Of a stretch of DNA of 43,588 nucleotides, positions 3,573 through 37,900 are shown piece by piece. Origin of the DNA: a virus; IMG/VR virus record IMGVR_UViG_3300042893_000573, positions 1 to 43,588 of that record; one strand, 5' to 3'. The position numbers were made by a program, and so were the translations under genes. Position 1 is the stretch's first letter; the number at the start of each line of letters is the position of its first letter. Below the pieces are notes generated by a model, which was not told the DNA's origin, searched no databases, and worked only from the letters and a program-made list of their open reading frames with translations.

Positions 3573-4856
3573 TTACAGTTTTCCGTAATCCAAACCCCAA
3601 CTTGCTTTTATTGGAAACCCACCATCTTCAATGATTTCCTTCAATCCCCGAATCATCTCCTTATCAACATCAACAGAAACATCAAATAGGAACGAATCAT
3701 ATGTGTATAAGCAAAAGCTAATTTCACTTCCTCTAATATAATCCAATATCCGTTTCATCTTATCCACATTCATTTCAGTTTCTACCGCTTGTAGTAGGTA
3801 GTTAAACACTTTTTGTGGGTTAGGTTGTTCTATCCACTCCAACGGAATCTCTCTATGTGGTGTTTGTAGGAATCCACTCTTTTGTGTTTCAATCCATAAG
3901 TTATCAATGTAATCAGCTACGGAATTAAGATATGGTATTTGTCTGAAGTCATCATCAATCCCTCCATATAGTAAACGGAACGTAATTCCCTTTCCCTCAT
4001 TCACATCACATCCATATTGTTCAGCCAACCACTCATGCACATTACCATACGGCATATCAAACTTAATCAACTTACCAATCAATCGGGGGTGATATGCGTT
4101 ATAATCCATTTGTAGGAATATCCCATCGGAAACAAAACATTCTCTACTACCATCGGTTTTATTTAAGGCGGCGTAATTCACACCGCCATGTCTATTGGAT
4201 GGTCTACCTGTCACCGTAAATGGATTGTACTCCGTAAACACTAAATTATCGGGTGAAAGCTGTTTAAGGGCTTGAGGCCATCTATCAATAAATTTTTTCC
4301 CATCGACACGGATTCCAAATTGTTCGATATCTGAAAGGGTTGGTAAGAATGTATCGTTGTACCAATTATAAGTTTTACTCTTTTGGTTTCTATGTTTAAG
4401 TAATTGTGGTTCTATTGCTTCCGCAAGTTTAAGAATGGGAATGGATTGAATGATGTCTTCTTTGTAACCTTTGTGTAATAAAGGTGCTACTAAGTGTTGT
4501 AGTGGTTGTGAGTAATCTATTGGTTCACCGGTCTTTAAGAAGTGAGCGGTATCAACATCATTCAAGCCTTCCCTTACATCCGTAAAAGATTGTAGTAGCT
4601 TTTTCTTTTGGAAAACCCATTTTTCACCGGCAGTATTCAACACACCTTCTATTTCCTCATTAGAGAGTGATAGAGCGTCTGTATGTTGTTGTGGTAGTAT
4701 ATACTTGTCCGATAAGGTTCTAACGAATATGAACGATATATGAGTGTTTTGTGGGTGCTTATCATTATCTACCCACATCGGATACCAAATGGATGCTTCG
4801 GTTTCCAACAAAACCTTCAATTCGTTTAATTCATCAATAGACTCAACAATTATCAT
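3573..4856 (-). CDS. Short divergent family A DNA polymerase
   Basis: Residue numbers here count from a TTG at 4865; the preferred start is the ATG at 4856, three codons in (427 residues). The C-terminal half has the family A polymerase motifs in order: TVTGRPSN (217-224); motif A LQMDYNAYHPRL with Asp254 as the metal ligand; motif B KGITFRLLYGG (292-302), which keeps the Lys-x3-Phe-x3-Tyr-Gly pattern of the Klenow O-helix; a helix with Gln359 (NYLLQAVETEM); and motif C YTYDSF with Asp390. Deviations are strong: the Klenow Glu710 position is His, the motif B Arg754 position is Val, and the usual HDE of motif C is Tyr-Asp-Ser. The N-terminal ~180 residues may be a degenerate 3'-5' exonuclease, since no clear DxE motif is seen. 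Replication genes usually lie outside late structural clusters, so the position is odd. It begins just after the tmRNA terminator. Confidence 0.82.
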   Translation of the reverse strand: MIIVESIDELNELKVLLETEASIWYPMWVDNDKHPQNTHISFIFVRTLSDKYILPQQHTDALSLSNEEIEGVLNTAGEKWVFQKKKLLQSFTDVREGLNDVDTAHFLKTGEPIDYSQPLQHLVAPLLHKGYKEDIIQSIPILKLAEAIEPQLLKHRNQKSKTYNWYNDTFLPTLSDIEQFGIRVDGKKFIDRWPQALKQLSPDNLVFTEYNPFTVTGRPSNRHGGVNYAALNKTDGSRECFVSDGIFLQMDYNAYHPRLIGKLIKFDMPYGNVHEWLAEQYGCDVNEGKGITFRLLYGGIDDDFRQIPYLNSVADYIDNLWIETQKSGFLQTPHREIPLEWIEQPNPQKVFNYLLQAVETEMNVDKMKRILDYIRGSEISFCLYTYDSFLFDVSVDVDKEMIRGLKEIIEDGGFPIKASWGLDYGKL

Positions 4857-4871
4857 AGGATACAAAGATAC

Positions 4872-4914
4872 AAAAAAAATCCCAAACTACCAAATAAATG
4901 TAGAATGGGATTTT
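4872..4914 (-). terminator. Rho-independent terminator of the tmRNA gene
   Basis: On the minus strand a 9-base stem (AAAATCCCA pairing with TGGGATTTT, 4906-4914 with 4876-4884) is topped by an inner CTAC/GTAG stem and runs into eight T (4879-4872). It begins at the final base of the tmRNA CCA end. Confidence 0.8.
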
Positions 4915-5346
4915 GGTGGAGATGAGGGGAATCGAACCCCTGTCTTACAAAGTAATCATAATACCAGCATATCACACGTTTAGGATAATGATTTAATCTT
5001 ACAACCATTCCAAAAGAATTGGGGCCATATGGTTAGTACAGCTTTCCACCATTCGATTTTCTAGATGAGTTTAAGGTGTGTTCGAATCACACCATCATAA
5101 CGGAGTCTCATTCTTCCTACTCGTCTGTCCGTAGTGTCGGTTCACATTCTATTTAATTGTCCCACGATGTGTGCGGGAGAGATTAGGCTGCTACAGCGTA
5201 ATCAGCACCTACGAAAGCCATAAGGTCTTCGAAGGTCATAGTTGACATTTCGTCAGTTATTGTTTTGTACAGATTTAAAGACATCTAGCACTTCTGTCTA
5301 CGTGTGGTACTACCATTCTCATTGCAATCAAGTCCATGGCATCCCC
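4914..5346 (-). ncRNA. ssrA: Transfer-messenger RNA (tmRNA)
   Basis: This 433-nt RNA would rescue stalled ribosomes and tag the unfinished protein for degradation. The 5' end GGGGATG (5346-5340) pairs with the 3' CATCTCC to give a seven-pair acceptor stem whose third pair is G-U, the alanyl-tRNA synthetase identity pair. The T arm is AGGGG, loop TTCGATT, CCCCT, and CCA is encoded at 4916-4914. An internal reading frame ends in ADYAVAA-stop, like the YALAA end of known tags. Just after the tag stop comes a hairpin, TCCCGC pairing with GTGGGA (5178-5160). A further perfect hairpin, GGTGTG with CACACC, lies at 5093-5075. The RNA is somewhat longer than the usual ~350-400 nt. It is one-piece rather than permuted. 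The pseudoknots were not resolved in detail. The gene is flanked by a baseplate-region gene upstream and its own terminator downstream. Confidence 0.95.
5183..5257 (-). other. tmRNA tag reading frame (up to 24 codons plus stop)
   Basis: Read from the likely resume region the frame gives Thr-Asp-Glu-Met-Ser-Thr and ends Gly-Ala-Asp-Tyr-Ala-Val-Ala-Ala-TAA. The hydrophobic C-terminus fits a protease-recognised tag. The resume codon is a guess from similarity to the E. coli context (AACTGACGAAATG here against CGCAAACGACGAAAAC). A later resume codon would shorten the tag. Confidence 0.65.
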
Positions 5347-5376: not shown

Positions 5377-5742
5377 TTAAACTACCAAATCATTTTTCAT
5401 AAACTGAATTGGATTTATTAAATGGTTTTGTATTTGAGGAATTTTTGAAGATGCTAATTTAATAGATTTCATATTTGATTCTCTAATATCACCCGCATTT
5501 CCAATTAATCTCCAATCCAAATTTACCGCAGTATAAAATGCGTTTCCGTTAAATTTTTTATATCCATTGGAATCTACTTCATATATTTTAGAACCCATAT
5601 CATTAGCTTTTTGTATAAAGTATCTAACAATATATCCATTTTTATAATCCCTATCAGATGGCTCTGGAATATGAGGACTTATTTTAAGTTGTCTATAAGA
5701 TGCTTTGGATGTACTTATTTTATCGTATCTAATGATGTCCAT
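5377..5742 (-). CDS. Hypothetical protein, probably baseplate-associated
   Basis: A 121-residue protein starting with MDIIRYDKIST and starting 4 bases after the end of the large hub-like gene upstream, so it should be co-transcribed with it. The composition is ordinary and soluble, with many Tyr, Lys and Ile and aromatic-rich stretches (NGYIVRYFIQKAND and TAVNLDWRLIGNAG), which suggests a small beta-rich domain. No membrane segment or signal peptide is visible. I recognise no catalytic motif. Its place at the end of the tape measure-baseplate gene run points to a small tail or baseplate component, by context only. It is the last protein gene before the tmRNA. Confidence 0.75.
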   Translation of the reverse strand: MDIIRYDKISTSKASYRQLKISPHIPEPSDRDYKNGYIVRYFIQKANDMGSKIYEVDSNGYKKFNGNAFYTAVNLDWRLIGNAGDIRESNMKSIKLASSKIPQIQNHLINPIQFMKNDLVV

Positions 5743-18192: not shown

Positions 18193-21100
18193 TTATTTTT
18201 TTGCTAATTCTTCTCTCAATTCTTTAATTTCAGCTCTTGCATCATCCAATTCTACTTTTAATTCTTTGATTGCGGCAATTGCTAAAGTTACCATTTTATC
18301 ATATCGAACTGTTTTATAATCTTCCTTATTAGTTTCTTTATGCAATGGGTCATAAAATTCAGAATCAGGATCAGAATATCCTTGCTTATCATTTATATCT
18401 TTAGCTCCTTGCAATACAACACCCATAGGCCATACCGCTTCTACTTCTTGCGAAATCAATCCAAAGTCTTTATCTCCTTCTCTCTTAGCCCATTTTTCTT
18501 CAGATAATTTATTCCATTCAAACGTATATGCTCCAATACCTGCTATGATATCTAATGCGTTTGGAATTGGTTCTATGTTCTGCTTTAATCTTCTATCAGA
18601 ATAATAAGCCACAACGTCACCAGTTACATAAAGAGGTCCATTGATTTGTGCATAAGCAACAGGGTTACCCAATACCCAATAGTAAGGACTGTGCCCAACA
18701 CCATTATAACCATTACCAAAGTGCATATTTGATGTACTCCAGTCGATAACTCTACCCATTACTTGGAAGGTATCCCAATTACCATACATCGATAATGTAT
18801 TATATCCGTTTACAGTTTCACCAATAAGTCTTCTACTATCGTTACCATTAAATCTTAATACAGACGCAAGATTTACATAGTTCATATTAGAATAATCATC
18901 AGGATTTACATAATATCCACCATTGTTTCTATCGTAATATGCATCAGCGTAGTGATTACCTCTAGTAGTACAGTTGTACGCTAGAGTATCATCCAGCTCC
19001 TCAATCTTAAATCCAGTTATTTCAGCTTGTCCACTATATCCACTATACAAATAGTTATGCAACCAACCAACTTGCGCCCATTTAGTAGGTCCACCCCAAT
19101 GTCCATAATCACAACCAGAAGGTCCTACAGTCATTGAATAATACGTCCAAGAAGATGGTGGTACACCAACAAACCAATATGGATTACCCCAACCACCATT
19201 ACCATGGTCACCAAAGTTCCAAGTAGATTGTCTATATGATAAATAACAGAAAGGATTACCAGACACACTTCGCATCCAACAAGATACTTTATAACTTCTA
19301 GCAGTATCAATAGGGATTCTACCTCTTTCAACTAAACCTTCCCATGCAGAGGGTCCTCTGAATGTATATGCTCCTGCCGGTCCATCACTAACGTTTGTCC
19401 AGTTACCCTCCATTGAAAATGCACCATCAGTACCAAATGAGTTTCTTGTCATATATTTACCACCTTCAGTAAACATACCATGCATTCTAGTACCGGTTGA
19501 TGTATTTGTGGAATATGCTCCACCTACTCTAAGTTGGTTTAATGTAGATAAATCATTTGGTTGAATGTTATATCCAGAGTCATCATAATCATAGAAAATT
19601 CTACTACGAACATTTGATGGCATGTACATTTCAGAACTACTATTCACATATCCTCTTTGTACGTTACCCGTTACAAATTCAATATAAGAACCACCCGTAC
19701 CTAACGATAGATAGTTTGGAGAATAAATACCAGGTCTTCCCCATGCTGCGCCCAATCTAACTTCACCTTGTCCATTACCTTCAGCATTGGTTACTATAAT
19801 ACCACTATCATTTGTAGTAAATTTAACTCTATTTGATGAACCACCCTGCATATTAAATCCACCATTTGCAGAATCTACATAATATGCTGTATTATCAGCG
19901 TCACGGAATATAGGTGCATCCATACCAGATGCTGAATATTGGTAACCATGTGTCCAAAAATATCCTGTATAGTTGGATATCATTGTTGTTATTCTACTAC
20001 CGGCATTATATCCTGTCCAACCTGGCATTGCTACACCACTACCTTGCCCAACCCAGAATGTTTCAGCTCCTACAGTTGAGTAATTACCAAACCCTTGTCC
20101 ACTTTGAGAACCTTTATTGAAATAGAATTCACCCCATCCTCTAGCATTCTCTTGGAATATCCAGTTATTATTTTCAGATACATCAGATGCTAAAAAAGTA
20201 CCACCATCATTTTGTTGTCTTACATATCCTGCTACTTGTAATACATTAAATTGTGATGTACCCTGTGGGTCAGCAAAATATACTGTATTATCTCTATCAT
20301 AGAATCTATATCCATAATAATCTCTACCAATATACAAATCACTACCAGTTGTTAATTCAAGTCTAGTTGTGTTTGAACCTCTATCGTAAATTGTAAATGA
20401 AGTTGATGCTGCCGAACCCAATGACCAAGTTCTTGCCGTAGAAATAATATCCACCCAAGTATTTGCGTTTGGTGATTGGAATGCTGCTACTTGGTTTAGA
20501 TTTCTATTAACGTGAATTCCATATCCAGGTTGAGAAGTACCAAATCCAATATTATCATTAAAATAAATGTATGAATCAGGATACACAGTTCCATCGGATG
20601 TATAAACACCACTCAATGTCATAGTATCTGTAACTATATTTCTACCACCTTCACCTTCAGCAAATACAGTTACTTTAATTCTATATGAATTTGCTGCGTT
20701 ATCTCTATTTGCTATTACAATTCTATATCTACTACCTGTCCAAACAACATCACCAAATGCAATACCATATCTAGTCTGTCCACCCACATCCACAACTCTA
20801 CTTTCATTTGCATATTGAGCATTACCAGGATTTAAACCTAAATAATATCTTTTTGCAACTCTACCAGGTCTATTAGCGTAGTTATATGAAGTAGTACCTT
20901 CAACTTCTATCCAGCCCCAAAATCCCGGATCGAATTCTAAGTTTGCTTTTTGATTTGAAGTGTTTCCAAATCCTAATGTAAAATTTCTGATACCATAAGA
21001 ACCCATCTTAAATACACCAGCTAATTCTAAGTTATTTAAATAAGATGTGGAGTTATTAATGTAATAAGATGTGCCACCAGCATAAACCGTACCAGTTGCT

Positions 21101-24100
21101 CTGATATTACCATTTGCGTAAATTCTAAATGTTTCAGTTTTACCATTTACAGTTTCAGAACCACCATTTTGGAATATATGGTCTGTGTAAGTTCCATAAA
21201 CCATATAATCACCATTAGTACCATCGTTTGCACCGCCACCAACATATGTTCTAAATGCAATATATCCACCAACATTATTATCCGTAAATAAGATACCACC
21301 ATAAGTACCAGTATCAGCTCTATTACGGAATTCTAAATAGTTATCACCACTTCCATTCTCAACTCTTAACAAACTAGCTCCATTGTACCCCCTAGCACCA
21401 GATGGAGTACCACCAGAAATTAATTTCACACCGCCAAAATATGATGTACCATTTACGGCCATTTTATAACCCTGGTCACCACTAAATCCTAAGTTAAAAT
21501 TACCATTACTTCTTAAGAACAATAATGGAGATGTTACACCATTTGCGTTGTTTGAAGAAGTTCCCCACCAAAAACCACTGCCAGCATCAGATGCAGAATA
21601 ATCAGTTATTGAAAAATGTACAGATTCACCATATGTATTTGAAGCGCCGCCTGTATATTCTTTAAATCCAATAAATGCATTCACACCATTATCAGTATAT
21701 AGAGTACCCTGCATTATTCCCGATGAAGCGCCGCTTGTACGGAATTCCATATATTGGTTTCCAGATGAATCTAATCTAATATAAGAGTTTGCATTGCTTG
21801 ATGTTGCGCCAGATGGAGTACCAGTACTTAATGTCAATATACCACTATTTGCTAATGTCATATATTGAGTACCAGCTACATTCCAAAGATGTTGAGTATT
21901 GTTAGAATCAATTTGATATGATGTATATGCGCCAGAATTATTTACTCTAGTTTGGAATCTCATCTTTGCACGGCTGGTATTGTTGTCCACAGTTTCTATG
22001 TACAATCCACCACCATCCATATCACTATAAGTGTAATATGAGTTACCACCACTTGACCATCTTAAACCACCTACCGCTTGTATAGTAGCTTGTGCAGTGC
22101 TTCCTACAGATCCAGCAATCAAACTACCCCTTACTTCCATATTTCCGTTATCACGCATTATAACGTTGTTGAATGCATCGTTTGAACTATTCCAACGGAA
22201 ACCATGTGAGGGAGCGCCAGTAAAATATGCATTATCTGTCAACATAGCCTTACCATCAAGAGTAAGTCTAGGTATTGTTACAACAGCACCACTAACAGTT
22301 AAGAAATCTGAACTTATATTTGTAAATGTAATATTAGAACCGAAATCATTATTAAAATAGAATCTGCTATTACTAGCATTTAAAATCATATTACCAGTAC
22401 TATCACTTCTAATCATACCCCTTTGAGTACCAGCAAAAGTGAAGTAAATCATACTTTGTGCACCTGATGGATTCTCTAATTGTAATATAGAGTTTCCGGC
22501 CGCTATTGTACCATTTGCGTAGTTTATTACTACTCTACTATTATGTGTTGTAACACCACCAAATGTTGTTGCACCAGTTACTGATAAAGCTGGCATTGTC
22601 ACCCCACTATTTATTTTTGTCAAACTATATGTAGCGGATGGTGAAGACAATCCTGCTGTTAAGTTTTCACTATAAGCTGTCCATTGATTTGGATTATGTC
22701 CATAGTTTTCTACTCTAACCGCAAATGTACTCGAACCACCAATATTTAAAGATGGAATAAATCCTTCTAAATAAGTGTAGTTTGTATCTGCTGCTAAACG
22801 GAATTGAGTAAAGTAACCACCATCGTAGTTTTCAATAGTTCCAATTTGTAATGTATTTACCCAATCTTTATATACCGTAATAACATCCTGTGCGGGCCCT
22901 AAGTAGTTACCAGTTGATGCTATATAAATTTTAGCTCCACCTCTAGCCCCATAACCACCACTTGCTAAACCACTTCTTGCTATTCTATACCAACCACTAT
23001 ATGCTGTTGAACCAACCGCAGTTAATGAACCCTCACTACCACCATATACAACTCTACCACCATTTGCAGTCAATCCATTTGTAATAGTTGCTGCGTTGAA
23101 TGTTGGTGATGAATCCGTTCTAACGTTTTGGTCCATTGCCGCTGCGTAAGAATATGTTGTAGCATCCATTAATCTTTTCCAAGCACCATAAGATGATAAT
23201 CCACCACCACTACCTCGTATCCAAAGGTTATCACCATCCGTAAATCCTAATTGACGAGTACCTCCACCAGATGAATCACCCCATTGTTGGAATGTTAATA
23301 CACCATGATATGTACCACCATCTGCCAACCCATCAGTACTATTTGCTAAAAAATCTACTCTAAGTTTTCTTCCACCAGTCTGAGGGCCTGTTACTACATT
23401 TCTAGTATCGAATACCGTAAGTTGGTCTGATGTTGTTGCTGATGATGCATTACCAACCAATGGACCTGTAATTTGGTTAAATGTAACGTTATCAGTTGTT
23501 CTAACATTTTGGTTCATTATGTAAACTTCAGTTGCTCCCTGACCCGTATCTATTGTACCACTTATTACAATATTACCAGAACTTACATTTAAATTACCAG
23601 CACTAATAGTTAAACCACTACCAAAGGTATATAATCCACCACCATCACCAGAATTGAAAGCTAAGTTTCCACCAGTTGCTTTTACAGTCCAAGAACGAGT
23701 ACCAGATTGGTCAAATCCTAATCTATCACCGCTTGAAACTAATATACCAGCATCTCCCGTACTATTTACGTTAGATGAGTTTCTTAATATACCATTAATA
23801 AATGTATAATCATCATGATACCATCTATCATTTGCTTCATCCCAATAGAATGCTTTTGTTGCTGCGTTACCTCTCTTAACTTCTATACCAGCATTTTCAG
23901 TTGGTGCAGTTGATGCTCCAATATCTGCGTTTAATGTGATGATATTATCACCTACATTTAATGTTGTTGTATTAATATATGTTGTTGTACCACTTACAGT
24001 AAGGTCACCACTAATTGTAGCGTTACCAGTTACAGTTAATGTACTACCATCGAATCTTAAATTTGCTTCTACCGTTCCGTTTGGTGCTGAACCATTTAAT

Positions 24101-26886
24101 GTTATTACACCATTATCAGTATTACCAGTTAATGCTAATAATCCAGATGAACCAGAAGTTCCGCTTGTGCCAGATGTTCCTGATGTACCGCTTGTGCCAG
24201 ACGTACCTCTTGTTCCCGAACTTCCACTACTACCACTCGAACCAGAACTTCCCGAACTTCCACTACTACCACTCGAACCAGATGTACCTCTAGAACCAGA
24301 ACTTCCTGAACTGCCGCTTGTACCAGAAGTTCCTGATGTGCCACTCGTACCAGAAGTTCCTGATGTTCCACTTGAACCGCTTGAACCAGAACTTCCCGAA
24401 CTACCGCTTGAACCACTACTTCCAGATGAACCAGACGTACCACGACTTCCTGATGAGCCGCTTGTACCAGATGTTCCTGATGACCCGCTTGTGCCAGATG
24501 TTCCTGATGTACCACTCGTACCAGAAGTTCCTGATGTGCCACTCGTACCAGAAGTTCCAGAACTTCCCGAAGAACCACTACTACCACTACTACCACTAGA
24601 ACCACTACTACCAGAAGCTCCACTAGTACCAGAAGACCCGCTACTACCACTCGAGCCGCTTGACCCACTAGTACCACGAGTTCCCGAACTACCACTTGAA
24701 CCGCTTGTACCACTCGTACCAGAAGTTCCCGAAGAACCACTTGAACCAGCACTTCCCGATGTACCAGATGAACCAGAACTTCCCGATGTGCCACTTGTAC
24801 CAGAAGTTCCCGAAGAACCACTACTACCAGCACTTCCACTATTACCAGTTCTACTAAATCCTACTATTAATTGTGCACCATTTGTTGGTAATGAACCAGC
24901 TATATAAGAAACAGGTATTTTATAATAACCAACCCCAACTACAACTGCTCCAGTTACTTGAAATTGATTTACTATTGTTCCACTATCTCTACTTACTAAT
25001 GAAATAACACCTCTAGCAGTTGTTGTTGTAGAATCATCCCAAGTATCATACCATGCTGTTTGAGATGTTCCACCTAAATCAGTATTATCTATATAAATAA
25101 ATCCTACAGACGATATTGTTGCATTATTATATTTAACAATACCAGTGCCAGGATCTGTATCGGTTATTGTTGTTGAGAAATTATATTTTATACCACCAGT
25201 TTGTCCAGAAGAACCAGAAGAGCCACTAGTACCACTTGTACCACTTGAACCAGAAGTTCCTGAAGAACCACTACTACCACTAGAACCACTACTACCACTT
25301 GCTCCTGTTGCCCCACTTGTTCCCGATGAACCGCTTGTACCAGACGTACCTCCAGTTCCTGGCGTACCACTACTACCGCTTGTGCCGCTTGTACCACTAC
25401 TACCACTAGTACCACTACTACCACCAGCTCCCGTTATACCAGAACTTCCCGAAGAACCACTACTTCCACCACTTCCAGAACTTCCCGAAGAACCACTACT
25501 TCCCGAAGAACCACTTGTACCACCACTACCAGAACTTCCTGATGAACCTCCAGCTCCTGTTATACCACTACTTCCCGATGAGCCCGATGTTCCACTACTT
25601 CCAGAAGTTCCCGATGTACCACCACTACCTCCAGTACCTTGTAAACCCTGTGCTCCGCTAGAACCACTACTTCCGCTACTACCACTTATTCCTGATGAAC
25701 CGCTTGTACCACTACTACCACTACTACCACTACTTCCGCTTGTACCACGAGTTCCTGATGTACCACTTGTGCCAGAAGTTCCCGAACTGCCGCTCGTACC
25801 ACCACTTCCAGAAGTTCCACTGCTTCCACTACTTCCAGACGAACCACTACTTCCGCTTGTACCTCTTGAACCACTACTACCACTACTTCCCGATGAGCCC
25901 GATGAACCACTACTTCCACTTGTACCTCCACTACCAGATGTACCACTACTTCCACTGCTTCCACTACTACCACTGCTTCCACTTGTGCCCCCACTACCAG
26001 AAGTTCCACTGCTTCCGCTACTTCCAGATGAACCACTACTACCACTTGTACCAGAAGTTCCTGAAGACCCGCTACTACCGCTTGAGCCACTTGAACCGCT
26101 TGTACCAGATGTACCAGATGTACCAGATGTTGCTGCTGCAAATCTTCTACCTATTCTACCAGTTGTTGTATTTAAAACCAATACTTCATTTGTTGAAGTA
26201 TCATTTGGTATTGAATCTCCTGTTACTAATATTGAACCACTAACAGATAAACTACCAGTTATTTGTTGAATATCATTTGTTGCATCTCCAAATTTATTTG
26301 AACCACTTGAGTAAATTATTGAAGAAGAAATAAGTGTTGTTTGAATTGTTGTTGCTAATATCTTACCATCAACATACAAATCATTTTTAAATGTAGCGCT
26401 ACCAGATACGATTAAAAAACTATCTACAGAAACTCCTGTATTAACTGTTAATCCTTTATTTGGAGAAATTTGTGCTATTGCGGAACCTGATTTTAATCTA
26501 TCTATATCACCAATTGATGCTGCTGATATATTTGTTAATCCACTACCATCTCCTTGAAATAATGATGCAGTTATAGAACCACTAATTTGTGTATTTCCTT
26601 TTATAGAAACTAAAGTTGATGTTACACTTACATAATTAGAACCACTTGCTATTTGAGATATATTTGTTAAGCCACGACCATCACCAACAAAAGAACCACT
26701 CATCGAACCAGTAAATTGAGAAGCACTAATAATATTAGCTTTTATATTTTGTGAAGCTGTTAAATTTCCAATAATACTAACGTATTCTGTTGAAAATAAT
26801 CCTACACTACTTCCACTTACTTTAAGTTCAACTAAACTTTTACTTACTAAATTTAATCCGTTTGGGTTCGTTCCTATATAGCTCAT
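18193..26886 (-). CDS. Giant collagen-like tail fibre with C-terminal S74 self-cleaving chaperone
   Basis: A 2897-residue fibre. Residues 1-250 hold beta modules (GDGxGLTNI; SSSIIYSSGSNKFGDATNDIQ) shared with the other giant fibre. Two collagen-like blocks of Gly-(Ser/Thr)-Ser triplets occupy ~253-560 and ~681-915, separated by a beta module (YNFSTTITDTDPGTG; AWYDTWDDST). After the second block comes a cap (LALTGNTDNGVITLNGSA), then ~1800 residues of beta-rich shaft. The shaft has four copies of a motif like DADNTAYYVDSANGGFN (also DRDNTVYFADPQG, DYDDSGYNIQPND, DRNNGGYYVNPDD). The end is a peptidase S74 chaperone: YYSDRRLKQNIEPI with the expected Ser2763-Lys2768 dyad, FGLISQEVEAVWP, YDKMVTLAIAAIKEL and a coiled coil. 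S74 domains assist trimer folding, then cut themselves off. The likely role is host receptor binding. Trimer formation and cleavage are inferred from the family. Confidence 0.93.
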   Translation of the reverse strand: MSYIGTNPNGLNLVSKSLVELKVSGSSVGLFSTEYVSIIGNLTASQNIKANIISASQFTGSMSGSFVGDGRGLTNISQIASGSNYVSVTSTLVSIKGNTQISGSITASLFQGDGSGLTNISAASIGDIDRLKSGSAIAQISPNKGLTVNTGVSVDSFLIVSGSATFKNDLYVDGKILATTIQTTLISSSIIYSSGSNKFGDATNDIQQITGSLSVSGSILVTGDSIPNDTSTNEVLVLNTTTGRIGRRFAAATSGTSGTSGTSGSSGSSGSSGSSGTSGTSGSSGSSGSSGSSGTSGSGGTSGSSGSSGSSGSSGTSGSGGTSGSSGSSGSSGSSGSSGSRGTSGSSGSSGSSGSSGTSGSGGTSGSSGTSGTSGTSGTRGTSGSSGSSGSSGTSGSSGISGSSGSSGSSGAQGLQGTGGSGGTSGTSGSSGTSGSSGSSGITGAGGSSGSSGSGGTSGSSGSSGSSGSSGSGGSSGSSGSSGITGAGGSSGTSGSSGTSGTSGSSGTPGTGGTSGTSGSSGTSGATGASGSSGSSGSSGSSGTSGSSGTSGTSGSSGSSGQTGGIKYNFSTTITDTDPGTGIVKYNNATISSVGFIYIDNTDLGGTSQTAWYDTWDDSTTTTARGVISLVSRDSGTIVNQFQVTGAVVVGVGYYKIPVSYIAGSLPTNGAQLIVGFSRTGNSGSAGSSGSSGTSGTSGTSGSSGSSGTSGSAGSSGSSGTSGTSGTSGSSGSSGTRGTSGSSGSSGSSGSSGTSGASGSSGSSGSSGSSGSSGSSGTSGTSGTSGTSGTSGTSGTSGTSGSSGTSGTSGSSGSRGTSGSSGSSGSSGSSGSSGSSGSSGTSGTSGTSGTSGTSGTSGSSGSSGSRGTSGSSGSSGSSGSSGSSGSSGSSGTRGTSGTSGTSGTSGTSGTSGSSGLLALTGNTDNGVITLNGSAPNGTVEANLRFDGSTLTVTGNATISGDLTVSGTTTYINTTTLNVGDNIITLNADIGASTAPTENAGIEVKRGNAATKAFYWDEANDRWYHDDYTFINGILRNSSNVNSTGDAGILVSSGDRLGFDQSGTRSWTVKATGGNLAFNSGDGGGLYTFGSGLTISAGNLNVSSGNIVISGTIDTGQGATEVYIMNQNVRTTDNVTFNQITGPLVGNASSATTSDQLTVFDTRNVVTGPQTGGRKLRVDFLANSTDGLADGGTYHGVLTFQQWGDSSGGGTRQLGFTDGDNLWIRGSGGGLSSYGAWKRLMDATTYSYAAAMDQNVRTDSSPTFNAATITNGLTANGGRVVYGGSEGSLTAVGSTAYSGWYRIARSGLASGGYGARGGAKIYIASTGNYLGPAQDVITVYKDWVNTLQIGTIENYDGGYFTQFRLAADTNYTYLEGFIPSLNIGGSSTFAVRVENYGHNPNQWTAYSENLTAGLSSPSATYSLTKINSGVTMPALSVTGATTFGGVTTHNSRVVINYANGTIAAGNSILQLENPSGAQSMIYFTFAGTQRGMIRSDSTGNMILNASNSRFYFNNDFGSNITFTNISSDFLTVSGAVVTIPRLTLDGKAMLTDNAYFTGAPSHGFRWNSSNDAFNNVIMRDNGNMEVRGSLIAGSVGSTAQATIQAVGGLRWSSGGNSYYTYSDMDGGGLYIETVDNNTSRAKMRFQTRVNNSGAYTSYQIDSNNTQHLWNVAGTQYMTLANSGILTLSTGTPSGATSSNANSYIRLDSSGNQYMEFRTSGASSGIMQGTLYTDNGVNAFIGFKEYTGGASNTYGESVHFSITDYSASDAGSGFWWGTSSNNANGVTSPLLFLRSNGNFNLGFSGDQGYKMAVNGTSYFGGVKLISGGTPSGARGYNGASLLRVENGSGDNYLEFRNRADTGTYGGILFTDNNVGGYIAFRTYVGGGANDGTNGDYMVYGTYTDHIFQNGGSETVNGKTETFRIYANGNIRATGTVYAGGTSYYINNSTSYLNNLELAGVFKMGSYGIRNFTLGFGNTSNQKANLEFDPGFWGWIEVEGTTSYNYANRPGRVAKRYYLGLNPGNAQYANESRVVDVGGQTRYGIAFGDVVWTGSRYRIVIANRDNAANSYRIKVTVFAEGEGGRNIVTDTMTLSGVYTSDGTVYPDSYIYFNDNIGFGTSQPGYGIHVNRNLNQVAAFQSPNANTWVDIISTARTWSLGSAASTSFTIYDRGSNTTRLELTTGSDLYIGRDYYGYRFYDRDNTVYFADPQGTSQFNVLQVAGYVRQQNDGGTFLASDVSENNNWIFQENARGWGEFYFNKGSQSGQGFGNYSTVGAETFWVGQGSGVAMPGWTGYNAGSRITTMISNYTGYFWTHGYQYSASGMDAPIFRDADNTAYYVDSANGGFNMQGGSSNRVKFTTNDSGIIVTNAEGNGQGEVRLGAAWGRPGIYSPNYLSLGTGGSYIEFVTGNVQRGYVNSSSEMYMPSNVRSRIFYDYDDSGYNIQPNDLSTLNQLRVGGAYSTNTSTGTRMHGMFTEGGKYMTRNSFGTDGAFSMEGNWTNVSDGPAGAYTFRGPSAWEGLVERGRIPIDTARSYKVSCWMRSVSGNPFCYLSYRQSTWNFGDHGNGGWGNPYWFVGVPPSSWTYYSMTVGPSGCDYGHWGGPTKWAQVGWLHNYLYSGYSGQAEITGFKIEELDDTLAYNCTTRGNHYADAYYDRNNGGYYVNPDDYSNMNYVNLASVLRFNGNDSRRLIGETVNGYNTLSMYGNWDTFQVMGRVIDWSTSNMHFGNGYNGVGHSPYYWVLGNPVAYAQINGPLYVTGDVVAYYSDRRLKQNIEPIPNALDIIAGIGAYTFEWNKLSEEKWAKREGDKDFGLISQEVEAVWPMGVVLQGAKDINDKQGYSDPDSEFYDPLHKETNKEDYKTVRYDKMVTLAIAAIKELKVELDDARAEIKELREELAKK
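24140..24844 (-). repeat. Collagen-like triplet repeat block 2 of the S74 fibre
   Basis: About 78 tandem 9-base units encoding Gly-Ser/Thr-Ser, with occasional Arg, Ala or Leu. Synonymous codon changes keep the DNA from being perfectly repetitive. Assembly here may be unreliable. Confidence 0.9.
25205..26130 (-). repeat. Collagen-like triplet repeat block 1 of the S74 fibre
   Basis: About 100 Gly-Ser/Thr-Ser triplets with interruptions such as GAQGLQGTGG and GITGAGG. The same type of block recurs at 24140-24844 and 29430-32630. Confidence 0.9.
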
Positions 26887-28986: not shown

Positions 28987-31900
28987 TTATGCCATATTTC
29001 TACCTACTAAGAATCCGTAATAAGTACTACCTCCATTATAAGTATAGAACACCAAAATATCCGTTCCACTTACAGTCAATGTTGGTTGTGCACCAGATGT
29101 CCATCTTACTATACCAGGCCATGCGATTGTATATGCTCCACCATTTGTTAATGCTAATGTAAATCCAAATGCGTTTGATGCTGGTGCATCTGTGAATGAT
29201 ATTGTTGAGTTTCCTGTTACAGTTCTAGTAAAGTTATTTGCTGTTATTAAACTAATAGCCGTTGCTCCACTACCAGAACCTAACGATGAGTATGTTTCTC
29301 TAAATGTAGTTGGTGCTATATGACCAGTTACTCCTAAAATACTACCATCAAATGTTAAGTTAGATTCAACTTGTCCACTTGCTGATGAATTTATATATGT
29401 TAATATACCATTATCAGTTGTACCAGTTAAAGATAGATATCCAGAAGTTCCTGATGTACCACTTATACCAGAAGTACCAGACGATGAAGAAATTCCAGAT
29501 GTTCCTGAAGTTCCATTAATACTTGTTCCGGATGTACCACTACTTCCAAAGAATGTTCCATCAAATCCAGAAGTTCCAGAAGTTCCCGATGTTGATGAAA
29601 GACCAGATGACCCAGACGAACCACTTATACCAGAAGTTCCTGAAGAACCAAAGAAAGTTCCATCAAATCCAGAAGACCCAGACGAACCACTTATACCAGA
29701 AGAACCACTACTTCCAGAAGTTCCAGATGAACCACTTGAACCAGAAGTTCCTGATGAACCACTACTTCCAAAGAATGTTCCATCAAATCCAGAAGTACCA
29801 CTACTACCACTACTTCCTGAAGAGCCACTAGCCCCACTACTACCCGAAGAGCCACTTGTACCATCTTGCCCAGATGTACCACTACTACCAAACATAGTAC
29901 CATCTAAACCAGAAGTTCCAGAAGAACCCGTTGTACCAGAAGACCCAGATGATGATGTTAATCCAGAAGAACCAGAAGAACCATTACTTCCAGAAGTTCC
30001 CGATGTACCACTACTACCAAAGAATGTTCCGTCCAAACCAGATGTACCGGATGAACCAGAAGACCCAGATGTTGATGTTAATCCAGAAGACCCAGACGAA
30101 CCATCTTGTCCAGAAGTTCCTGATGAACCACTACTTCCAAAAAATGTACCATCAAATCCGCTTGAACCAGACGAACCAGAACTTCCTGATGAACCTCCTA
30201 TACCAGAAGACCCAGACGAACCATCTTGTCCAGAAGTTCCTGATGTACCACTACTTCCAAACATAGTTCCATCTTGTCCAGAAGTTCCTGATGAACCAGT
30301 TGTGCCAGAAGAACCAGATGAACCAGAAGAACCTGATATTCCCGAAGAACCACTTGTACCATTTTGCCCAGAAGTTCCACTACTTCCAAAGAATGTTCCA
30401 TTTAATCCACTTGAACCAGAAGTTCCAGATATTCCCGAAGAACCAGATATTCCTGAAGAGCCACTACTACCACTACTTCCGTTCACACCAGACGTTCCAG
30501 ACGAACCAAAGAATGTTCCATCTAAACCAGAAGTTCCCGATGAACCACCACTACCGCTTGTTCCTGTTGTGCCAGATGAACCACTACTTCCATTCATTCC
30601 AGAAGTTCCGCTTGTTCCATCTGAGCCAGATGTACCACTTGTCCCATCTATACCAGCAGAACCCGTAGTTCCTGAAGTACCATATGAACCCGTAGTTCCT
30701 GATGTACCATCAGTTCCAGTTGAACCAGACGAGCCACTACTTCCACTACTTCCCGAAGTTCCATTTATTCCACTAGTTCCAGATGAGCCTGATGAACCTG
30801 TTGTACCATGTGAGCCCGTTGTTCCTGAAGACCCCGTTGTTCCTGAAGAACCAGAAGTTCCATCCGAACCAGAAGTTCCATCCGAACCAGAAGTCCCGCT
30901 TGTTCCGTTTTGTCCCGAAGAACCACTACTTCCAGATGAACCATTTGAGCCGGTTGTACCACTACTTCCACTACTTCCACTCGAGCCAGAAGAACCATCT
31001 ATTCCCGAAGTTCCATTAGAGCCTGTTGTGCCAGATGAACCTGACGTTGCTGATGTACCACCACTTCCAGAAGTTCCGCTTGAACCGCTTGTACCACTAC
31101 TACCAGAAGAACCATTAGTTCCCGATGTACCATCTATACCCGAAGTTCCTCCACTTCCAGAAGTTCCAGATGTACCGCTTGAACCAGCGGAGCCCGTTGT
31201 ACCAGCGGAGCCCGTTGTACCTGCCGTACCTGTTGTTCCCGATGTACCCGAAGTTCCACCACTACCAGACGTTCCACCACTACCAGATGTTCCCGATGTT
31301 CCTGCTGTGCCAGAACTTCCCGAAGAACCACTACTACCGCTACTACCAGAAGAACCGCTCGTACCACCACTACCAGATGTTCCCGATGAACCACTACTAC
31401 CACTCGTACCAGCACTTCCCGTAGTTCCCGATGAACCAGTTGTACCACTTGTACCACTACTACCGCTTGTGCCAGAAGAACCACTTGTACCACTACTTCC
31501 AGAAGACCCCGTTGTACCCGATGTTCCAGATGTGCCAGCTGTTCCTGAACTACCGCTTGTACCAGAAGTTCCATCAGAGCCAGATGTACCACTACTTCCA
31601 GAAGACCCGCTACTTCCACTACTACCGCTTGAACCAGTAGAGCCAGATGAACCAGAACTTCCTGATGAACCGCTTGAACCAGAACTTCCTGAAGAACCGC
31701 CACTACCCGTTGTACCTGCCGTACCCGTTGTACCAGACGAACCCGTAGTTCCCGATGTACCAGATGACCCACTACTTCCACCACTTCCAGAAGTTCCTGA
31801 TGTACCTGCCGTACCACTACTACCGCTTGAACCAGATGTACCAACTGTACCAGAAGACCCGCTACTACCACTACTACCACTACTACCACTTGAACCAGGC

Positions 31901-34900
31901 AAACCTGCGCTACCGCTACTACCGCTACTACCGCTACTACCGCTACTACCAGAAGAACCACCACTTCCAGAAGTTCCACTACTTCCGCTACTACCAGAAG
32001 AACCACTACTTCCTCCACTTCCCGAAGAACCAGATGAGCCAGAAGAGCCACTACTTCCAGATGTACCATGAGAACCCGTAGTTCCCGAAGACCCAGAAGA
32101 ACCACTACTTCCCCCACTACCACTACTTCCCGATGAACCACTACTACCACTACTTCCTGATGAACCATTCGAACCAGTTGTACCAGAAGTTCCTGATGAA
32201 CCACTACTACCGCTACTACCAGAAGAACCATTTGAACCAGATGTTCCACTTGAACCGCTTGAACCGCTACTACCAGAAGAACCGCTAGTGCCGGATGTAC
32301 CCGCAGTTCCAGAACTTCCTGATGAACCTGCTGTACCAGAAGTTCCCGAAGAACCAGACGAACCTCCACTTCCAGAAGTACCACTACTACCACTACTACC
32401 ACTTGAACCAGTTGTTCCTGATGTACCAGAAGTTCCCGATGAACCAGAAGTTCCCGATGAACCATCTACTCCTGATGTTCCCGATGTACCTGCCGTACCA
32501 GAAGTTCCTGTTGTACCACTCGTACCGTTACTACCAGTTGTTCCCGATGTGCCACCTGTGCCGGCTGTTCCAGCTGTACCAGAAGTTCCCGATGTGCCCA
32601 TAGTACCATCAACACCAGAAGTACCAGCTGCTTGTTGAACGTTTCTAGTTTCTAATTTTTTTGTTGTTGAGTTCCACACTACCACCAATTCCGATAAAGA
32701 ACTTGTATATGGATTACCCAAATATAAACTACCACTAACACCCAAGCTACCACTAATTGTAAGTGATGCGTTTATTGTTTGGTCTTTATTAATTTGTAAG
32801 AACGATGCCGTATCAACGCTTGATGCATTTAGTGCAAATAAAGCAACGCTAGCTGTATATGCATTTAGTGCTAATGAAGCCGTACCAACTAACATTGATG
32901 CTGTTTGAGAATTTTGTACAAAATTTGATGTATCTACATTTGCTGCGTTTGCTGCGTATAATGCGTAAGAAGAACTTATCGCAAATGATGCAGTACCAAC
33001 GGTCATAGATGCCGTTTGAGAATTTTGTATAAATAAAGATGTATCTACATTTGCTGCGTTTGCTGCGTATAATGCGTAAGAAGAAGATAATGCGTAAGAA
33101 GAACTAACTGCACCAAACACATACATTGATGATGTTTGATTATTTTTAACATATTGAGTTGTATCTAAATTTGCAGTAAGTGCTGCTAATGATGCCGAAT
33201 CAAATCCAGCTACATTATCTGCCGATGATGCATGTATTGCGTAAGATGCTGATAACACCAATCCAAATACTCTATCACCAGGTATTGTACCACTAATTAA
33301 CGAACCACCACTACCAATTACAACATGTCCAGATGTTAATCCAGCAAATATAAGTTGAATAGTATCTTCATCAATTGATTTAATTGTACCAGCCATTATT
33401 TGGTCTTCAGAACCAGTAGCGTATACTTGAACTATTGGATATCTAATTCCTAAATTGTGTACTACAGTTAAATTACTTACATTATTAAATGCTACAGTTT
33501 CAGTTAATGAAGTTTCAGGTTGAGGAATATAATAACCTCTATTCTCATCCCATCTTAAAATATCATATTCAGCAGATGCGGTTGGTCCTACTCCTTGGAA
33601 ATTATAAGTACCCAATAGTGAACCAGTAAATATAGGAGCTGCTATTCTATGAGATGATGTGATATCATATGCTGTAATATTATTTCCAACATAAAGATTA
33701 CCCCAAATTGATGCAGATGTATTAGTTACAAATCCTTTGTCAGGAGAAATTGATGCCGTAAATGAACCACTCTTTAATATGAATGTTTCAAATGCTAAAT
33801 TAGCTATATTGATATTTGTCAATCCACTACCATCACCAATAAATGATGAACCAGATGTTAATGTAACATTACCACCAGTTATAAATAAACCACCACTTAC
33901 AGATAACGATTGGGAAATACTTACGCTTGTATTTACAACCAATCCTTTGTTCGGAGAAATTACCGCTTCAACAGAACCAGATCTAATTCTATCCAATTGT
34001 AAATCTTCCAATGCATTTGCAGGGATATTAAATAATCCACTACCATCACCATCATAACGAGCTGCGGTAATTGGCGTATTTACATCTAATTTAGTTGGGT
34101 CTTGTATTGCTCTACCAGAACCAGATTGAATTCTATCTAATTGTAAATCTTCAAGTGCCGATGCTGGAATATTAAATAGGTTTGCACCACTACCAGAAAA
34201 AGACCCACTTACTAATTTTACATCACCATAAAAGAATGAACCAGAGTCATACGATGTTACAACAAACCCAGTATCAGGTGCCACAGAAGCGGTTACACTA
34301 CCACTTTTAATTAATGGAGATGCTGCTGCCTGTACATTTGTGATTTGAGAACCATCTCCAACAAATGCATTTGCAGTTACAGTTTCATTTACATTTAAAG
34401 AACCAGAAATATTCACCGAACCAGTAAATTGAGAACCATACTGAGAACCAGTTGCTGTTGTTTCTACTCTAAATCCAAAATTAGGGGATACTGATGCAGT
34501 TACACTACCACTAGAAATCTTTGGTGAAGCTTGTGCAGTTACATTTGTAATAAATGTACCATCTCCAAAAATAAATTTAGATACAATTAAATTATCAGTT
34601 ATATTTAAAGAACCAGAAATATCTACTGAACCAGTAAATTGAGAACCAATTTGAGAACCAGTTCTATTAGTTTCTACTCTAAATCCATAATCAGGAGATA
34701 CCGATGCTGTGATACTACCACTAGCAATCTTTGGAGATGCTGCTGCTACTACATTTGTAATATATGTACCATCTCCAAAAATAAATTTAGATACAGTCAA
34801 TGAACCACTAATATCAACAGATCCTGTGAATTGAGAACCACTATCCAATGATTCAACTCTAAATCCATAATCAGGCGTTGTTGATGCAGTTACACTACCA

Positions 34901-37900
34901 CTAGCTATTCTGAATGCATCTCCACTAAATGCCGTTCTAGGAATATTAAATAATCCCTCACCAGAACCGGAGAAGAAAGAGCCGGATGCTAAAAATACAC
35001 TTCCACTAATATTAATACTTCCAGTAAATTGAGAACCACTATCTATTGATTCAACTCTAAATCCAAAATCAGGAGATGTTGATGCCGTAACAGATCCAGA
35101 TGCTATTAATGATGCATCTTCTGATAAAGCAGATTGTGGTATATCAAACAATCCTCTACCAGAACCAGAGAAGAAAGAACCACTCTCCAATTGTACAACA
35201 CCACCCATGCCACCACTTATAAATAAGCTACCACTAATTTCTTGTCTATCGGTTTGATTGCTACCAAATATATTAGAACCAGATGAATAAATTATTGATG
35301 ATGAGATAAATGTTGTAATTAATTCAGTTGTAACTATTTTACCAGCTACAAATAAATCATTTGTAATATTAAGAGAACCACTAATATCAACACTACCAGT
35401 AAATTCAGAACCACTATCAATTGATTCAACTCTAAATCCATAAACAGGACTTACTGATGCAGTTATACTACCACTAGTTATAAATGTTGATAATAATGCA
35501 TCAGGCGTTAATGCTGAACGAGGTATTTCTCTAAGATACTTACCTTCACCATAATAAACTGATGATGATTCTAATATAAATGAGCCTGATGTTGCTTCCA
35601 CTCTCAAACTACCAGTAATAGAAACACTACCAGTAAACTGAGAACCACTTTGTGTAGATAACACTATAAATCCAGAATCAGGACTTACAGAGGCAGTTAC
35701 ACTACCACTAGCAATTCTATAAACTTCTTGAGATAGAGATGAAATAGGAATATCAAATAATCCTCTACCAGAACCAGAATACATTGAAGCGGTAACAGTC
35801 GTATTAACTACTAATCCAAAGTTTGGAGAAATAGATGCTGTTGCTGAACCACTTGCTATTCTAAATACTTCAGATGATAAAGCAGATTGTGGAATATCAA
35901 ATAATCCTCTACCGCTACCACTAAACATCGATGCAGTTACATTCCCAATTACTTTTGTTTCACCAATTAATTTTATTTCAGCTGGAACATATAATGCATC
36001 TACTACATTAATAGTACCTGCCATAACTCCGTGAAACTGACAATTATAATATAATGTATTTGGTGCGTTAGTTGGTACAGTAAATGTTATTACGCCACTA
36101 TCATCACCATTATTAACCACACCATCATTATATGCATTTCCAGTTCCAGTTGAATTTACTGTCTTAATATAAAATGGATGCCCAGATGCATTAAGGTTAA
36201 ATGTATATGCAATTCCCCTTACTAAAGTTATTGTTGGATTATCACCAATAGCCGCACCCATAAATTGGTATGCACTACTACCGTTATTTGATACATTAAA
36301 TATTCTATTTAACTCATAATTTGGAATTTCTCTAGCCGATGATGATACAATAAAACTTCCACTAATTGTAGAAAATGTATTTACTCTAAATCCATAATCA
36401 GGTGAAATTGATGCAGTTGCTGAACCAGAGAATATTTTTGATAAATCCAAATTAGATAATGCTGATAGTGGAATATTAAATAATTTTTCACCACTACCAC
36501 TAAAGAATGAACCAGAATTAACTGATATACTTCCACTTGCTCTAATACTTCCACTAAATTCAGAACCACTAGCTATTGATTCAACTCTAAATCCATATTG
36601 AGGATTTACAGAAGCAGTTACACTACCACTAGCAATTCTACTAGCATCTCCAGTAAATGCAGATAAAGGAATATTGAATAATCCCTCACCACTACCACTA
36701 AATGCAGATGCAGATACGTTATTGTAAAATCTTGCAGAGCCTGTTACTATTAAAAAATCCTTTACAGTTATTCCTGTATTGATTAACAATCCTTTATTTG
36801 GAGATATTGATGCAGTTGCAGAACCAGAAAAGATTAATGATAAATCTAAATCAGAAATTGCTGATTTTGGAATATCAAATAATCTAGCTCCACTACCACT
36901 AAAAGAAGAACCAGAAGTTAATTCAATACCTCTACTTCCACTTACAAAAAGAGAACCAGTAAATTGAGAACCACTTTCAAATGATTCTACCTTAAATCCA
37001 AAATCAGGAGATACGGATGCAGTTACACTACCACTAGCTATTCTATTTACATCTCCAGAAAAAGCTGAGAATGGTATATTAAATAAACCCTCACCATTAC
37101 CATCATAACGAGATGCGGTAATAGGTACGTTTACTCTCATACCAAAATCAGGAACCATTTGAGCTACGGCTGCTCCACTTACAATTCTACTACTATCTAT
37201 TGATAAATTTGCAATAGTAATATTTGATAATTTAGAACCGTCTCCAATAAAATAAGAACCAGATTCTACTGTTAAATCATTAACTACATCAAGACTACCA
37301 CTTATATTAACACTACCAGTAAAATAAGAACCACTATCCGTTGATATTACTACAAATCCAAAATCAGGAGATACCGATGCAGTTACACTACCACTTGCTA
37401 TTCTACTAGCATCTCCAGTAAATGCGGAAAATGGAATATCAAATAAATTTGCACCACTACCACTAAATGAACCACTAAAGTTTTTAGCTACTACTCTTTC
37501 AGATACAAATAAACTTCCAGTTATTTGGGTATCTCCAATAAATTTAATTTCTGCAGGTCTTGTTACTACATCAACTATATTAAATATACCACCCATACCA
37601 ACATTTGCCTGAGATTGGTAATATAAAGTATTCGGTGCGTCATTTGGTACAATAAATGTAACCGTACCACTACTAGCTCCATTATTAGTTACACCACTAG
37701 AATATGCATCTCCAGTTCCTGTTGTTTGTGCTGTTTTAATCCAAAATGGATGAGTAGCTATATTAGCGGTTAAAACAAATGTATATGTTAAACCTCTTAC
37801 TAAATCCAAAGGAGGATTTGCAGAACTATTTATTTGATAATAAGAATTATCATTATAATTATCAACATAATAAACAGTTTGTAATGATTGACTTGGAAAA

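Follow-up and report, generated by a model that had tools for sequence, protein, structure and literature searches.

A complete phage tmRNA with a 23-residue tag and its long-tagged relatives

The tmRNA encoded in the DNA analyzed here, the 43,588 nucleotides of IMG/VR virus record IMGVR_UViG_3300042893_000573 (hereafter, the window), is real and complete, and resumes translation at an upstream GAC codon to give a tag of 23 residues, DEMSTMTFEDLMAFVGADYAVAA. The long tag is a family trait rather than a single case, and its core is constrained as a peptide. tmRNA and SmpB free stalled ribosomes and add a degron; the extra tag length, kept across many related viruses, probably does a job.

The tmRNA gene, its resume codon and its tag

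ARAGORN and the Rfam covariance model RF00023 agreed on a one-piece tmRNA gene with an encoded CCA at exactly 4914–5346 on the minus strand. The RF00023 match scored 75.5 bits (gathering cutoff, 47; E = 1.1e-27) and covered model positions 1–374, its full length; the middle of the model matched poorly, and the tools used model no pseudoknots. The G3-U pair, the T arm and the CCA end were all found, both with RF00023 and in a coordinate check, and the tag frame read by ARAGORN ends in Ala-Ala followed by a stop. The preliminary description, which had reported a complete phage tmRNA with these elements and had proposed a covariance search as a check, is thus confirmed. The features of the region, all on the minus strand, are:

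3573–4865, minus: family A DNA polymerase-like gene beside the tmRNA (PHROG 17, DNA polymerase; relatives annotated as DNA polymerase family A), used as the anchor for relatives
4877–4913, minus: hairpin and T run directly 3' of the tmRNA, a likely intrinsic terminator (-14.2 kcal/mol; none of 200 shuffles reached this stability)
4914–5346, minus: one-piece tmRNA gene (ssrA)
4918–4924, minus: 3' strand of the acceptor stem, CATCTCC, followed by ACCA at 4914–4917
4925–4941, minus: T arm, AGGGG-TTCGATT-CCCCT, with a covarying stem
5183–5254, minus: tag frame, 23 residues plus a TAA stop (ARAGORN, coordinate check and family comparison)
5186–5203, minus: host-like C-terminal degron, DYAVAA (coordinate check and tags of relatives)
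5204–5236, minus: conserved core of the tag extension, TFEDLMAFVGA
5243–5255, minus: short hairpin within the tag frame that spans the resume codon, UGAC-GAAAU-GUCA
5255–5261, minus: AATAACT, which includes U-5 and A-4 and precedes the resume codon
5340–5346, minus: 5' strand of the acceptor stem, GGGGATG, including G3 of the G3-U pair
5377–5742, minus: ORF of 121 aa directly upstream of the tmRNA, with no PHROG match

The tmRNA shares its strand with its neighbors and is located 30 bases past the 121-aa ORF and just before the polymerase-like gene. A terminator consensus scan restricted to loops of 3–8 listed none at the tmRNA end, and promoter-like sites around the gene were no commoner than chance would give (3 found, 6.2 expected). 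In an alignment of phage tmRNAs, comprising 36 of 40 representatives (we left out L033, L135, L154 and L166), the acceptor-stem G-U pair was kept in all 36, and there were compensatory changes in the T stem and neighboring stems. On the opposite strand, a perfect T-arm-like sequence (GGTGTG-TTCGAAT-CACACC, 5075–5093, plus) lies in or beside a stretch of about 50 bases that is absent from locus L002; it is possibly a tRNA remnant, or a chance occurrence.

In E. coli, the resume codon is reported to lie four bases after A86 (PMC2481249). The window context, AAUAACU-GAC, fits the rule of a resume codon four bases past a conserved A, and the same TAANN context is found in Bacteroidota tmRNAs, e.g., AAUAACU-GGCGAA. 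The 36 distinct aligned tmRNAs showed no variation at A-4, at A-3 or at the G that opens the resume codon. Over all loci read, A-4 and G were present in 214 of 214 tags, a partly circular count in which starts were assigned by a list of N-termini derived from the same context, and which includes some loci cut from a single contig.

The preliminary description had put the tag at up to 24 codons, about twice the usual, with the caveat that a differently placed resume codon could leave a tag of ordinary length. We considered resumption at the GCU codon downstream, which would produce a seven-residue tag, ADYAVAA, and leave the upstream frame as a leader. The GCU site in the window does have U-5 and A-4 (UAGGU-GCU), and ARAGORN itself picks a short, GCU-type start in L082 (AEYAVAA) and L089 (AEEYALAA). 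However, A-4 was kept at this site in only 37 of the 71 distinct tags (out of 74) in which the site could be located, whereas the upstream A-4 and G are invariant, and it is for this reason that we hold to the long reading. Furthermore, the frame upstream of GCU shows peptide constraint (see below), and a GCU start would place the tag about 50 bases away from the host-like context. We consider resumption at GCU very improbable and reject it. The tag is thus 23 residues plus the stop, i.e., 24 codons, and the length given in the preliminary description stands.

The hairpin over the resume codon was compared with synonymous recodings of the same frame and through pair counts in relatives of the seven-codon type. 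All 38 distinct arms folded better than the mean of their recodings (mean z = -2.09; p ≤ 0.05 in 14 of 38). Among 33 segments of the longer-arm type, the covariation score was 0.171, compared to 0.065 in shuffles (0 of 500), while two of five covariation measures, the pairs changed on both sides and the further pair types, were not above shuffles in this set. The hairpin was kept through the double changes GUAGA/UCUAC, GUUGA/UCAAC and GAAGA/UCUUC. A host control of 53 distinct arms, to which the codon usage of the window was likewise applied, gave a mean z of -1.62, with p ≤ 0.05 in 24. Since host tag frames are likewise more foldable than their recodings, we rejected the hairpin as a phage-specific novelty.

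A family of long tags with a constrained core

Relatives were fetched through the neighboring polymerase gene, not through the tag, yielding 80 loci, the best 80 of 104. In 74 of these, among which near-identical phages recur, a family tag of 23–26 residues could be read directly from the frame, corresponding to 20 distinct peptides. Of the six remaining loci, five are uninformative, because at most 630 bases remain on the tmRNA side before the polymerase match; the sixth, L012, has full flanks and gave no Rfam tmRNA match. ARAGORN found a tmRNA in 67 of the 80 loci, and in 13 (L008, L016, L020, L022, L033, L036, L050, L052, L053, L054, L056, L074 and L080) it misread the tag as an unrelated peptide, such as VNKPEHYLSAP. 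Surveys based on ARAGORN may therefore undercount long tags.

Tags were read from 177 of 213 core-bearing loci. All the loci read gave 43 distinct tag peptides and 74 distinct nucleotide tags, every one of 23–26 residues; L038, with the variant TWEDAM, is counted both in these totals and in the set of 17 cores described below. The commonest pattern was (D/A)(V)E(L/M)S(T/S)(M/W/F)-TF(E/D)D.MAFVGA-(D)YAVAA, with in-frame insertions and deletions, and the TF(E/D)D.M core was kept beside the differing tag ends DEATFA, GEVLMAA and EYAYAA. The family is broad: the tail sheath was from 78% down to 29% identical to that of the window in 11 of 12 records, with no match in the twelfth.

For the 17 distinct 11-codon cores from polymerase-anchored loci, pN was 0.214 and pS 0.501, a ratio of 0.43 with a codon bootstrap range of 0.23–0.67, in which relatedness is ignored; an earlier set of 16 gave 0.42. 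Of the control frames, the +1 frame was stop-free in only one of 17 sequences and closed by stops in the other 16, and the +2 frame gave a ratio of 1.09 from the nine of 16 sequences that lacked stops. A pooled value of 0.255 from 41 cores was set aside as biased, many of these cores having been found with a pattern that fixes most core residues; its control frames rested on only 10 and 21 stop-free sequences.

We also considered whether the tag is the best-conserved part of the molecule, and withdrew this claim, which fails in the nine aligned rows that were selected independently of the tag. In these polymerase-anchored rows, DNA conservation was 0.78 for the tag, 0.75 for the core, 0.82 for the tail and 0.69–0.85 for other regions. 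In the other 27 rows, the tag reached 0.79, compared to about 0.5 in the pseudoknot regions, and 26 of these 27 were found with a pattern that fixes the core. Thus, the case for a constrained peptide rests on the type of substitution and not on raw conservation, and the lack of superior conservation in the nine rows led us to lower the odds of the docking reading described below.

Tags in hosts, other phages and known systems

Host tmRNAs came from a sample of 296 genomes in the phylum to which an Allomuricauda genome belongs, 277 of them over the tmRNA cutoff. We read 70 loci, the 30 best and 40 hand-picked down the list, so that the sample is not random. The 69 Bacteroidota tags obtained were of 8 (1 tag), 9 (36), 10 (27), 12 (2), 14 (2) and 19 (1) residues, that is, all but one of 8–14. 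The single tag of 19 residues, ANNTPVYAMNSVPVYSLAA in L519, resembles an internal duplication. Bacteroidota tmRNAs are like that of the window in being one-piece, in their TAANN context and in the foldable start of the tag frame, and their tags, such as GENNYALAA, begin with GE and end in NYALAA where the phage tag has DE and DYAVAA, but they lack the inserted core. The phage tag differs from the host-type ssrA tags read, a comparison of the kind that the preliminary description had proposed; judged from these sequences, it resembles a host tag into which a segment has been inserted.

A codon-degenerate pattern for the core, (T/N/S)F(E/D)DxMAFVGA, too narrow to catch variants such as MSF or MEF, gave no hit among the 84,980 species of genome_contigs and at least 120 hits in IMG/VR. 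All occurrences of the core motif in the 3.37 Mb of phage DNA retrieved were within tmRNA tags, a tblastn search with a family tag gave no match (short queries being weak in tblastn), and the window tag had no match among PDB chains. A pattern for nine-residue, host-like tags was found in nine viral stretches.

When the whole tmRNA was compared to the phage collection by blastn, 737 records matched; among the matches listed (20 rows), all fell in the last ≈50 bases. A sample of other phages was found through the tRNA-like 3' end, and 119 loci among the matches listed were read. Among these were 31 one-piece tmRNAs, 16 of which had tags of at least 20 residues, including six from the long-tag family, and 51 two-piece tmRNAs, of which four had tags of at least 20 residues, one probably misread. 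Other phage tags, of 21–31 residues according to ARAGORN, were seen in L386, L497, L443, L447, L395, L425, L476 and L487, e.g., ADEEYRDLLAEAEQIFNNADAYVPEEALLAA and GNTFAKMATLGLTREASVVAA. From these readings and those of huge phages (see below), long tags of unrelated sequence seem to turn up repeatedly among phages, but automatic tag calls are error-prone.

Phage tmRNAs are already known. They are described from mycobacteriophages Bxz1, Catera and Wildcat and from Bacillus phage G, with no long-tag family in the parts of that source consulted (PMC4131195). In Wildcat, the tmRNA is reported as the most highly expressed lytic gene (PMC7474061). Huge phages are reported to carry both tmRNA and SmpB (PMC7162821). 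For two of them, the TAANN rule gives a tag of 36 residues in LR756508.1 and one of 24 residues in LR756504.1, both unrelated in sequence to the long-tag family; ARAGORN gave GRRKPLSW for the former and no gene in the latter. Two Lak phages have tags of 10 residues, reported to be the commonest tmRNA tag length. The aquatic myophage Methylophage Melnitz also has a tmRNA, in this case two-piece and of the alphaproteobacterial type, with no analysis of the tag sequence in the parts of the report consulted (PMC9004378). A tmRNA database is reported to hold 79 phage sequences among 97,179 (PMC11915505). Among the matches listed in searches of the open-licence literature, no title or opening of an abstract describes the long-tag family.

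Partner genes and possible functions of the insert

An SmpB gene was found in one of 27 distinct related records, that of a phage of 294 kb whose tag is DNKSTMTFEDAMAFVGAGEVLMAA (L343 5453–5896, G016), where it lies ≈5 kb from the tmRNA. Relatives of this SmpB occur in 65 phage records, including those of Lak and further huge phages. ClpP-like proteins were present in six of 15 related records, including a stand-alone gene 3.6–3.8 kb from the tmRNA in L340, L341 and L342. The Lon C-terminal domain (Lon_C) was found in none of the 15, records that may be fragments, as the window is, none being known as a complete phage of the family. Two isolates with relatives of the polymerase, Flavobacterium phage immuto (sheath 36% identical, polymerase 26%) and Microcystis phage Mel-JY01 (47% and 32%), gave no full tmRNA match. 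In a co-occurrence screen (ORFs from 55 aa, phmmer E of 1e-4, most records possibly being fragments), none of the protein-coding genes common to the five long-tag phages compared was missing from both of these tmRNA-less relatives; two genes occurred in three of the four other long-tag phages and in neither relative. Because no phage gene in this screen tracks the long tag and SmpB was found in one of 27 records, we favor a host factor over a phage gene as the probable partner of the long tag.

The window tmRNA, if expressed, would probably be charged by the host alanyl-tRNA synthetase and work with host SmpB and the host ribosome, freeing ribosomes that stall during infection. Translation would then switch to the resume codon GAC and add a tag of three blocks: a host-like start, DE (GE in hosts); the inserted segment, MSTMTFEDLMAFVG; and a host-like degron, ADYAVAA. 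The C-terminal -YAVAA still resembles an ordinary Clp-type degron, which presumably leads to degradation. The insert is probably helical. Read by eye, it has the features of a capped helix, with T as the N-cap, a D three residues later, F/L/M/F/V on one face and a final G as the C-cap. Such a segment would dock onto a host AAA+ protease or its adaptor, and the products of stalled ribosomes in infected cells might be handled differently from, or faster than, host-tagged ones. This combination of ribosome release by host machinery, a host-like degron and a docking insert is our preferred reading, which we hold tentatively and give nearly an even chance. A more general proposal is more doubtful: that phages repeatedly evolve extended tags with a second, selected protein-binding segment. 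In this family, that segment would be a short amphipathic helix that captures an adaptor of a host protease, or some other factor, and thereby alters the fate of stalled products. The core could also serve an on-ribosome step rather than a protease.

The strongest competitor is that this is an ordinary phage tmRNA in which only -YAVAA works, and the extension is a spacer or protease handle kept mainly by common descent. The C-terminus is indeed host-like, conservation in the nine polymerase-anchored rows is no lower for the tail than for the core (0.82 vs. 0.75), and the unrelated long tags of other phages suggest that length may outweigh sequence. However, about half of the synonymous sites in the core differ, and amino acids less so (pS 0.50, pN 0.21), and TF(E/D)D.M persists beside the ends DEATFA, GEVLMAA and EYAYAA. 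On balance, we consider the spacer explanation unlikely, though not by much. An insert of 13–15 residues that is kept as a peptide suggests that the tag sequence has value to a virus. The family offers a concrete, testable way into the question of why tmRNA is carried by phages, and may yield a new motif for protease docking.

The ssrA tag of Mesoplasma florum is 27 residues long. This tag, which differs in length and sequence and has parts that are reported to matter for protease recognition (PMC8138137, PMC9097571), is handled by the bacterium's own Lon (PMC8138137), a precedent for the suggestion in the preliminary description that a different tag could redirect tagged proteins to another protease. 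The tag is different, as suggested, and three records have a ClpP-like gene close to the tmRNA. Redirection itself fared less well: the end of the tag, -YAVAA, looks ordinary, the M. florum system is cellular and works with its Lon, whereas Lon_C was not found in the 15 related phage records, which may be fragments (the phage side only), ClpP-like proteins were found in four of 12 IMG/VR records, with the two copies checked nearest to head maturation proteases, and the co-occurrence screen described above gave no candidate gene. We regard redirection to a protease such as Lon as improbable.

A captured host tmRNA or decaying pseudogene is scarcely credible and was rejected: the Rfam score of 75.5 bits is below those of host genes (114–157, and about 148–205 among the best matches listed), but the defining elements are intact, the T and neighboring stems have compensatory changes, and 74 of the 80 polymerase-anchored relatives have the family tag.

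Elsewhere in the window, two giant ORFs, at 18193–26886 (2897 aa) and 28987–39681 (3564 aa), contain long GSSGTSG repeats and are perhaps fiber or collagen-like surface proteins.
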